Shown here in pieces: positions 8,286 to 45,518 of a stretch of 52,288 nt of DNA. Below the pieces are notes generated by a model. The model was given only the letters and a program-made list of their open reading frames with translations, was not told where the DNA came from and did no database searches. This stretch comes from Haloparvum sedimenti (GTDB lineage: Archaea; Halobacteriota; Halobacteria; Halobacteriales; Haloferacaceae), in assembly GCF_001462205.1 (NCBI RefSeq), contig NZ_LKIR01000119.1, positions 1 through 52,288 on the forward strand. The letters are read 5' to 3'. Each line of letters starts with the position of its first letter. Positions within the stretch are counted from its first letter, which is position 1. A program made the position numbers and the translations under genes.

Positions 8286-9176
8286 ATGGACGAACGCGAG
8301 GCGCTGGCGCGGATCGGCGCCACCCTCCCACACGCTGGCGACGACGCGGCGGTCGTGAACGGGACCGTCGTCACCACCGACATGCTCCACGAGCGGACGG
8401 ACTTCCCGGCCGGGACGACGCGGTACACCGCCGGCTGGCGCGCGGTCGGCGCCTCGTTGTCGGATGTGGCGGCGATGGGCGCCGACGCGACCGCCGCGGT
8501 CGCGGTGTACGCCGACGAGCGCTTCGATCCGGAGGAGCTGACGGCGTTCCTCGAGGGCGCCCGGGACGTGTGCGCGGCCGTCGAGGCCGAATACGTCGGC
8601 GGCGACCTCGACGAGCATTCGGAGTTCACCGTCGCCACGACCGCGTTCGGCGAGGTGGACGAGCGCGCGGGTCCGGTCCGCCGCACCGGCGCCGACCCCG
8701 GCGAGGCGGTCTGTGTCACCGGCGAGTGGGGCCGGAGCGCGGCCGCCCTCCGGCTGTTCGAGGCAGGAGAGGCGGAGCGGGCGAACGACCTGTTCCGGTT
8801 CACGCCCCGCGTCGCGGTCGGTCGCGTGCTCGCCGGGCGCGCGAGCGCGATGATGGACTCCTCCGACGGGCTGGCGCGCTCGCTCCACCAGCTCGCGGAG
8901 GCGAGCGACGTGGGGTTCGCGATCGACCGCGCGACGGTCCCGGTCCACCCCGCGGTGGAGGAGGTCGCCGCGGACGCGACGGACCGCTTCGAACTCGCGG
9001 CCCACTTCGGGGAGGACTTCGAACTCGTCTTCACCGCCTCCGAGCGCGCACTCGACGCGATCCGTGAGCGTTCACCCGCTCCGATCGCCCGGATCGGAAC
9101 CGTCGAACCGGCCGATAACGGCGTGACCGCCGACGAAAATTCCCTCCCCGATCGCGGTTACACGCACGGGACTTGA
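8286..9176 (+). CDS. thiL: Thiamine-monophosphate kinase
   Basis: A 296-residue ThiL, which phosphorylates thiamine monophosphate to thiamine diphosphate with ATP. It has the AIR-synthase-like fold: GDDAAVV (18-24), TTDMLHERTDF (30-40), SLSDVAAMGA (57-66), the central VTGEWGRSAAALRL and the metal/ATP motif MMDSSDGLARSLHQLA. FGEDFELVF near the C-terminus is also typical. The ATG at 8286 is preferred over the in-frame GTG at 8244. The stop codon lies inside the sequence TTGACATCC that begins an IS605-type end-like hairpin, but the C-terminus (LPDRGYTHGT) looks intact for the family. Confidence 0.94.
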   Translation: MDEREALARIGATLPHAGDDAAVVNGTVVTTDMLHERTDFPAGTTRYTAGWRAVGASLSDVAAMGADATAAVAVYADERFDPEELTAFLEGARDVCAAVEAEYVGGDLDEHSEFTVATTAFGEVDERAGPVRRTGADPGEAVCVTGEWGRSAAALRLFEAGEAERANDLFRFTPRVAVGRVLAGRASAMMDSSDGLARSLHQLAEASDVGFAIDRATVPVHPAVEEVAADATDRFELAAHFGEDFELVFTASERALDAIRERSPAPIARIGTVEPADNGVTADENSLPDRGYTHGT

Positions 9177-9208
9177 CATCCTCCCCGCCCTGAAGGGCGG
9201 GGATTTCT
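9175..9208 (+). mobile_element. Solitary IS200/IS605-type right-end-like hairpin
   Basis: GACATCCTCCCCGCCC-TGAA-GGGCGGGG-ATTTC overlaps the thiL stop. The stem pairs 9183-9190 with 9195-9202 (8 bp, 4-nt TGAA loop). From memory, this is the sequence seen directly after tnpB (orfB) in IS1341/IS605-type elements in haloarchaea and other prokaryotes. No tnpA or tnpB is nearby, so it is either a remnant or a minimal hairpin-only derivative. Copies B and C of the larger repeat lack it, so it is separate from element A. Confidence 0.6.
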
Positions 9209-9241
9209 CCTCTGTTCTCCGCATACCGAACTCCCAGACCG

Positions 9242-9792
9242 CGATACTGAGTGATGCAGACCGATTCAGAAGTCTCGCTTTTCTGAAACTCGCGGCGGTG
9301 CGGTGCTGTGCGGTCGCGGAGCGGTGCGGTTGCGGTGCGGTTGCGGTCGCAGTGCCGTGCTGTCGGCGCGCGCCGCGGCGACCTTGTGTCGCCGCGACCG
9401 CGCGAGGGAGGCGGCGGCGCGGCCGCATTGCGGTGCGGTCTCGCGGCCGCGCCGCCGCCGAGGTTGGGGAGGTGCGAGGCTGCTGTGCGGTTGCGGTGCG
9501 GGGTGGGGCTGAAAGGGGCAGTCGGCTCGACCGGCCCCGACGACGTAAGCACCGCAGCGGGCTGTGCGGAGAGCGAGGAGCGCAACGAGGCGCGGCCGGT
9601 CGAGCCGACTGGGGCTTTCTGGATGGTGTTGTTCCACGCAGCAGGATCTGCAACAGACACAAAAACCGCGTCCAGAGAGCCGGCTGGGGCTTTCTGGGTG
9701 TTGCTGTCCCCAGCAGCAGGATCGACAGCAGTCACAAAAACACCCACAAGTAGCAGAAAACAGACAAAAACACACCGCTCCACTAAGTATCG
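9242..9792 (+). repeat. Repeat element A (TIR-bounded, structured, non-coding; 551 bp)
   Basis: The left end is CGATACTGAGT (9242-9252) and the right end ACTAAGTATCG (9782-9792), an imperfect inverted repeat with one mismatch. Inside are three stems: 9374-9382/9388-9396 (9 bp), 9410-9426/9443-9459 (17 bp) and 9520-9536/9594-9610 (17 bp). Two tail modules starting CTGGGGCTTTCT lie 75 bp apart at 9609 and 9684, each ending in a CAGCAGGATC-CACAAAAAC segment. The same layout recurs at 28901-29451 (inverted) and 45008-45518. No ORF is conserved between copies. Element A fills the gap between thiL and cofD and ends 80 bp before the cofD start. No clear target duplication is visible. Confidence 0.82.
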
Positions 9793-28820: not shown

Positions 28821-28900
28821 CCCGGACGTTTGCGGGTCGACCGCAACCCTCGCTTTCTTTCGAGACCGCCCCCGAGCCGCTGCGCTATCACAACAGATAC

Positions 28901-29451
28901 CGATACTGGGTATAGCGATGTGTTTGTGTCTGCGTTCTGTTACTGGGCGGTGTTTTTGTGACTGCTGTCGATCCTGCTGATCTGGACAGCAACACCCAGA
29001 AAGCCCCAGTCGGCTCTCTGGACGCGGTTTTTGTGTCTGTTGCAGATCCTGCTGCGTGGAACAACACCACCCAGAAAGCCCCAGTCGGCTCGACCGGCCG
29101 CGCCTCGCTGCGCGCTCGCGCCTCTCAGCACCGCCCGGCGCAAGTGCTTACGTCGTCGGGGCCGGATCGAGCCGGCTGCCCCTTTCAGTCCCACCCACCG
29201 CAACCGCACCACGGGCCTCGCACCTCCCCAGCCTCGGCGGCGGCGCGGCCGCGGGACCGCACCGCACAGCAGGCGGCCGCGCCGCCGCCTCCCTCGCGCG
29301 GTCGCGGCGACACGCTCCGCGGTCGCCGCGGCGCGCGCCGACAGCACGGCACCGCAACCGCACCGCTCCGTGACCGCACAGCACCGAACCGCCGCGAGTT
29401 TCAGGAAAGCGATGTTTCTGAATCGGGCTGCATCACTCAGTATCAGTATCG
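28901..29451 (-). repeat. Repeat element B (551 bp, inverted relative to A and C)
   Basis: End sequences are CGATACTGGGT (28901-28911) and ACTCAGTATCAGTATCG (29435-29451), an imperfect inverted repeat. Read from the minus strand, the layout matches element A: stems 29303-29311/29322-29330 (9 bp), 29236-29252/29273-29289 (17 bp), and 29083-29099/29160-29177 with one bulged T and one T-G pair. Two tail modules lie 75 bp apart, with starts at 29009 and 29084 on the minus strand. The first stem's loop is 10 nt and the second stem's loop 20 nt, both different from A. It sits between sod and the APC-permease gene with no coding capacity shared with the other copies. Confidence 0.82.
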
Positions 29452-45007: not shown

Positions 45008-45518
45008 CGATACTGAGTGATGCAGCCCGATTCAGACACATCGCTTTTCTGAAACTCGCGGCGGTGCGGTGCGGTCGCGGAACGGTGCGGTTGCGGTGCC
45101 GTACTGTCGGCGCGCGCCGCGGCGCCCCTGTGGCGCCGCGACCGCGCGAGGGAGGCGGCGGCGCGGCCGCATTGCGGTGTCTCCGGCGCGCCACTGCACG
45201 CCGGAGGCCAGCGGGACGCGGTTTGTCCCGCGCTGCGGGTCGCGGCCGCGCCGCCGCCGAGGTTGGGGAGGTGCGAGGCTGCTGTGCGGTTGCGGTGCGG
45301 GGTGGGGCTGAAAGGGGCAGCCGGCTCGAACCCGCCTGGACGACGCAAGCACCGCAGCGGGCGGTGCCGAGAGCGAGGAGCGCAGCGAGGCCCGGCGCGG
45401 TCGAGCCGGCTGGGGCTTTCGAGGTGTTGCTGTCCAGATCAGCAGGATCCGCACCAGTCACAGAAACAACGTAATCTGACAGAAAGACAGAACGAACCGC
45501 GTAGTAGACTCAGTATCG
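45008..45518 (+). repeat. Repeat element C (511 bp)
   Basis: The ends CGATACTGAGT (45008-45018) and ACTCAGTATCG (45508-45518) form a perfect 11-bp inverted repeat. Stems are 45118-45126/45132-45140 (9 bp), 45154-45170/45242-45258 (17 bp) and 45318-45329/45401-45412 (12 bp). The apical loop of the second stem is 71 nt, against 16 in A and 20 in B. It holds two further hairpins (45181-45188/45199-45206 and 45211-45217/45225-45231). Only one tail module is present, where A and B have two. It follows the M50 protease gene. A near match to the left end (CGATACTTGAGT) lies just outside at 45528-45539. Confidence 0.85.

Follow-up and report, generated by a model that had tools for sequence, protein, structure and literature searches.

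A dispersed family of folded intergenic elements in haloarchaea whose helices are kept by selection

The 52,288-nucleotide stretch of Haloparvum sedimenti DNA analysed here (the window) carries three copies of a dispersed repeat with a multi-helix core, and comparison of many copies from haloarchaeal genomes shows that the fold itself is kept by selection. We consider it rather probable that the repeat is a mobile, non-autonomous and non-coding element dispersed across the Halobacteria, which must fold to work, the folded single strand being the part that acts. The family of structured elements is apparently undescribed so far: no description was found in the open-access literature, searched by topic and by sequence motif, with subscription papers and supplementary files lying mostly outside that search. 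A known RNA family was also considered and rejected, as Rfam 15 gives only tRNAs in the window. In a relaxed Rfam 15 search of five loci, only matches far below the gathering scores were seen besides one tRNA.

Copy A lies on the plus strand at positions 9242–9792 and is bounded by terminal inverted repeats, CGATACTGAGTG at the left end (9242) and CACTAAGTATCG at the right end (9792). Its P1 hairpin (9365–9404) includes stem 1 (9374–9396) and is followed by the P2 hairpin (9410–9459, arms 9410–9426 and 9443–9459) and the P3 module (9503–9619, GTGGGGCTG), which corresponds to stem 3 of an earlier sequence-only reading. P3 of copy A consists of an outer GAAAG/CTTTC stem, a GGG/GGG loop (9516–9518 and 9612–9614), the arms 9519–9530 and 9600–9611, and a conserved apical part. 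Positions 9611–9760 hold two tail units, each about 75 bp long (GGGGCTTTCTGG...AGCAGGATC...), the first at 9611–9685 and the second with an approximate end. Copy B is on the minus strand (28896–29445), with its left end at 29429–29445, stem 1 at 29303–29330, P2 arms at 29236–29252 and 29273–29289 and P3 at 29074–29194. Copy C is again on the plus strand (45008–45518), with stem 1 at 45118–45140, P2 arms at 45154–45170 and 45242–45258, a P2 loop that holds an extra inserted hairpin, and P3 at 45302–45420. All three belong to a class of about 17 copies in this genome that are bounded by the inverted ends CGATACTGAGT...ACTCAGTATCG. The end pattern CGATACTGAGTGNNGCA occurs in 17 copies of the genome at 0–1 mismatch, the right ends being inverted matches. 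The sequence ACATCCTCCCCGCCCTGAAGGGCGGGGATTTC adjoining the left side of copy A (approximately 9170–9230) resembles the right end of an IS1341-type tnpB element.

The H. sedimenti assembly (3.24 Mb, 143 contigs) contains about 40 copies by BLAST. A covariance model of P3 gives 82 matches at E ≤ 0.001, around 60 of them strong and the three repeats of the window among them; copy number in this genome is a lower bound because assembly gaps and contig ends fall within repeats, as at five of the loci. The element opens with a variable left part that carries short TGCGGTGC-type repeats, followed by P1, P2, a linker, P3 and the tail units. P1 exists in two versions, and P2 sits between GAGGGA and GAGGCTGGGGAGG. 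Entire P2 helices are swapped between copies with pairing kept (GGCGGCGGCGCGGCCGC, GCCGCGGGCCGGGCGCG and CCCGCAGCCGCGGTCGC, each matched by a complementary arm of its own). P3, which spans GTGGGACTGAAAGGGGC to GGGGCTTTC, is a stem of about 110 nt (roughly 100–130 nt) with conserved GTGGGACTG...GGGGCTTTC; its outer helix is GAAAG/CTTTC, its GGG/GGG internal loop hardly varies, a 12-bp helix drifts freely in sequence, and the unpaired apical bases are near-invariant. One to five tail units of about 69–84 bp follow.

Two features of this anatomy may be mentioned separately. Tail units, both in the window (9611–9760) and at three other loci, each restart with GGGGCTTTC and finish with a copy of the end of the P3 3' arm, as if the element had duplicated its own end. 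Further structured modules are found inside hairpin loops at 45171–45241 of the window and at seven other loci, among them hairpins of GCGCGCTACTGCACGC type in P2 and, in the P3 loop, a long insert AGTCGCAGCCCGG...CCCGGACCGTCT; the element appears to nest other folded repeats.

Regarding the compensatory changes, the sequence-only reading had reported that an A-T pair of stem 1 in copies A and B is C-G in copy C, and the quoted sequences are confirmed in all three copies. At this pair, the eighth of the stem, 23 copies of the genome have A-T and five have C-G, with no mismatched intermediates. The reported replacement of T-A in copy A by C-G in copy C at stem 3 is likewise correct (arm positions 9520/9600 in A, 45319/45401 in C and 29083/29167 on the plus strand in B). 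Copy B had been described as a T-G intermediate of this change. The pair does read T-G on the plus strand, but copy B lies on the minus strand while A and C lie on the plus strand, so that in the sense of A and C it is C·A and not a wobble intermediate on the element's own strand. For stem 1, which is palindromic, the strand of copy B is irrelevant; for stem 3 it is not. T·G does occur at this position, pair 4 of stem 3, in three other arm pairs of the genome: the 23 distinct pairs comprise 12 C-G, five T-A, three T·G and one each of C·A, G·G and G-C. Three copies gave only a weak basis for the selection on folding that had been deduced from these changes, as common descent or template switching in hairpins could look alike.

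With many copies the arms do not vary independently, and the idea of selection on folding is supported. For 67 copies taken from other genomes, the share of cells that pair is 92.9%, as compared to 67.0% after shuffling, and 28 of the 33 base pairs carry a two-sided change. The observed covariation score of 0.540 compares with 0.123 (sd 0.007) in shuffles and 0.035–0.073 with slid partners; none of 500 shuffles attains any of the observed values. Paired columns are variable (frequency of the commonest base often 0.4–0.7) and unpaired columns are near-fixed, and the GGG/GGG internal loop, which belongs to the latter, keeps both its sides in 60 of the 67 copies. Since this alignment had been fitted to the model, the test was repeated without an aligner, taking P3 arms at a fixed distance from the conserved anchors AAAGGGG and GGGCTT. 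Across 118 distinct arm pairs, Watson-Crick pairs make up 93.7% of cells, as compared to 50.1% with arms shuffled between copies; the set admitted only copies with at least 7 of 12 Watson-Crick pairs, a cut-off that raises the pairing percentage yet does not account for why each position favours its true partner over many pair types. Specifically, mutual information peaks at the true partner, in row and in column, for all 11 outer P3 arm pairs, whereas off-diagonal columns, which share the same phylogeny, reach at most 0.67 bits. Pair 2 of P3 alone is found as C-G (48), A-T (28), G-C (24) and T-A (15). P2 gives the same picture in fewer copies, for eight of nine pairs.

The family extends far beyond H. 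sedimenti. In an even draw from the haloarchaeal order, P3 is found in 105 of 146 genomes, with one to more than 24 copies per genome and no match in some. In a phylum-wide draw of 197 genomes, 28 have a P3 match and all 28 come from the order. P3-bearing genera include Halorubrum, Haloarcula, Natrinema, Halosimplex, Haloterrigena, Natronococcus and Halonotius. P3-like sequence is also present on 21 plasmid records, and those listed are haloarchaeal. A phage or virus origin was rejected, there being no match in a phage collection or in viral contigs.

Copies can be followed at orthologous sites in two genera. In the genus of genome G139, by inference Halorubrum, one intergenic site is filled in some species and empty in others. 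Between G139 and G192, six of the 19 P3 pairs at this site show compensated two-sided changes and none a one-sided change; the differences between G139 and G217 are a single two-sided change and a single step from T-A to T·G (arms for these comparisons were read manually in the alignment). Individual changes at this locus may go back to gene conversion by another copy. Finding compensated changes at an orthologous locus speaks against template switching or copy swapping as the sole cause. A dead transposon copy should not show this much compensated change at one locus across diverged species, which leaves room for a host function. In the second genus, a paired element is found in two species (G061 and G090), inverted in G090 relative to G061; most of the other eleven species seem to lack it at that site. 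The empty sites of the two genera have edges that are too diverged, and a precise empty site was not observed. At a Halorubrum locus (L232–L236), TTTATAA stands just upstream of P1 and within each tail unit and resembles archaeal TATA boxes or part of the inverted ends; by eye, TIR-like TTATAAAT ends are seen at the Halorubrum locus as well.

Concerning arrangement, P1 and P2 precede P3 in 42 distinct copies of H. sedimenti and 75 of other genomes, P3 faces another P3 head-to-head in 96 distinct copies, and it is solitary in 88 distinct copies of other genomes. Of 263 P3 copies in other genomes, 94, around one third, stand head-to-head, with spacers of 20–51 bp, mostly 25–32 and most commonly 30 bp; no such pairs were seen in H. 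sedimenti. All 307 distinct P3 copies are intergenic by an ORF heuristic built on the amino-acid composition of haloarchaeal proteins, so that a coding origin was rejected, and all four orientations of the flanking genes are common. A gene-linked regulator or terminator was rejected, as the orientation of neighbouring genes follows no fixed pattern in H. sedimenti or elsewhere. An associated transposase was looked for as well: ORFs near 191 loci form small families only, and the few members recognisable by eye look like housekeeping genes, e.g. isoleucyl-tRNA synthetase. In this inspection by eye, no transposase or other mobility gene family was seen to recur beside the 191 loci. The H. sedimenti genome has four Y1_Tnp matches, none of them at the listed copies. 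At seven loci P3 is near the same gene, which by eye looks like isoleucyl-tRNA synthetase, and at six others near a gene resembling the E subunit of glutamyl-tRNA amidotransferase. Recurrence beside these two tRNA-related genes possibly reflects chance or very old positions.

The exceptions to Watson-Crick pairing in P3 arms bear on which strand folds. On the element's strand there are 53 G·T and 18 A·C exceptions (binomial p ~4e-5), or 44 and 17 with each cluster of similar arms entered a single time (p ~7e-4). The excess is weak and not conclusive when only head-to-head copies are taken (11 G·T vs 5 A·C). A double-stranded role would be symmetric, and the G·T excess thus indicates that one strand is favoured. 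These counts favour folding of the element's own strand, whether the folded form is RNA or single-stranded DNA. The same strand would be indicated by a mutation bias linked to transcription.

Several known repeat classes share features with the family. REPINs, inverted REP doublets associated with RAYT transposases and predicted to fold as single-stranded DNA or mRNA (PMC3116915), are similar in being non-autonomous, in their many intergenic copies and in forming inverted doublets with a short spacer. According to PMC3733652, a REP is a short palindrome of 20–40 bp with a GTAG or CGTC tag, whereas the P3 unit, at about 100–130 nt (~110 nt on the whole), has a multi-helix fold, carries conserved GTGGGACTG...GGGGCTTTC instead of a tag and spans a whole archaeal class. 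REPINs have the RAYT transposase, and beside P3 copies no RAYT-type gene was recognised. We therefore do not file the family as a REPIN, the unit being several times too long, the tag absent and no RAYT link found. BOX elements of Streptococcus pneumoniae are modular repeats that would form a stem-loop if transcribed (PMC3049150). They resemble the family in modularity with a variable number of one module, in intergenic position and as presumed non-autonomous mobile elements, but have another anatomy, with no sequence relation known. In the P3 family, by comparison, compensatory change is documented across many genera and the tail units lie outside the P1–P3 fold. PATEs and SMRs of Haloquadratum walsbyi are also short, transposase-free mobile repeats of haloarchaea. 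In the portion of PMC3119063 on which we draw, PATEs have near-terminal palindromes related to the ends of IS605-type transposons and lack the inverted terminal repeats that the window copies have, SMRs have inverted ends and no target duplication, and no covarying multi-helix core is described for either. Terminal inverted repeats of MITE type are present on the roughly 17 H. sedimenti copies with CGATACTGAGT...ACTCAGTATCG ends. Inspected by eye, the flanks of about eleven copies in this genome showed no target-site duplication, and its end-motif matches include no autonomous element with CGATACTGAGT ends, the extra hits being copies broken by assembly gaps or contig ends. As neither a target duplication nor an autonomous parent was found, we do not class the family as a MITE.

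Mobility is favoured by orthologous sites that are filled or empty in two genera, by the terminal inverted repeats of the H. sedimenti class and by head-to-head pairs. Against it, no target-site duplication or precise empty site was seen, no adjoining mobility gene was recognised, and H. sedimenti yielded no autonomous parent. In this reading, the strand that reads GTGGGACTGAAAGGGGC... would fold as RNA or single-stranded DNA, and a trans-acting protein could bind the folded strand, reading both the fold and the unpaired bases; such binding would spread or maintain the copies. Mobilisation in trans by a fold-recognising protein is suggested by analogy with REPINs and RAYT (PMC3116915) and with BOX (PMC3049150). 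The main rival is a multi-copy haloarchaeal non-coding RNA with a host function, for example in an RNA-protein particle or as a regulatory RNA, that was dispersed by past mobility and each copy of which is selected. Variable paired bases beside fixed unpaired ones are a textbook RNA pattern; this reading also agrees with G·T exceeding A·C on the sense strand, with compensated changes at a fixed orthologous locus and with the presence of P3 in most genomes of the order. It fits poorly with copy numbers from one to more than 24, with genomes that have no match, with orthologous sites that are often empty, with the variable gene context, where no shared promoter is demonstrated, and with the absence of an Rfam match, and we regard it as unlikely.

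A purely structural DNA element, i.e. a cruciform or a protein-binding palindrome comparable to bacterial REP/BIME sequences that bind chromosome proteins, would need no transcript. Intergenic position, freedom of orientation, palindromic form and frequent inverted pairs would all suit it. Being strand-symmetric, it predicts G·T equal to A·C instead of 53 against 18, and is in our view quite improbable. Least of all do we expect that the two-sided changes arose with no selection, from hairpin template switching or from whole-stem swaps by recombination. Recombination acts, since whole P2 helices are replaced and, of two sister species, one carries a head-to-head element in inverted form. Template switching or palindrome correction should also remove the mismatched GGG/GGG loop, and its retention argues against them; nor do such processes predict a G·T bias or account for isolated single compensated pairs at differing positions.

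P3 could conceivably mark a mobility system, so far undescribed, that reads folded RNA or a single strand, or else a new RNA-protein particle, which would have lasted throughout the class Halobacteria in up to tens of copies per genome; we put this forward tentatively and with some doubt. The finding adds a large family of structured elements, apparently undescribed so far, to a well-studied group of archaea, with genetically tractable hosts and copies at known orthologous sites. A covariance model is ready for the annotation of haloarchaeal genomes. Because single copies can be traced across species, it becomes testable whether the fold serves the spread of the repeat or the host, a question that is seldom open to testing for a dispersed repeat.
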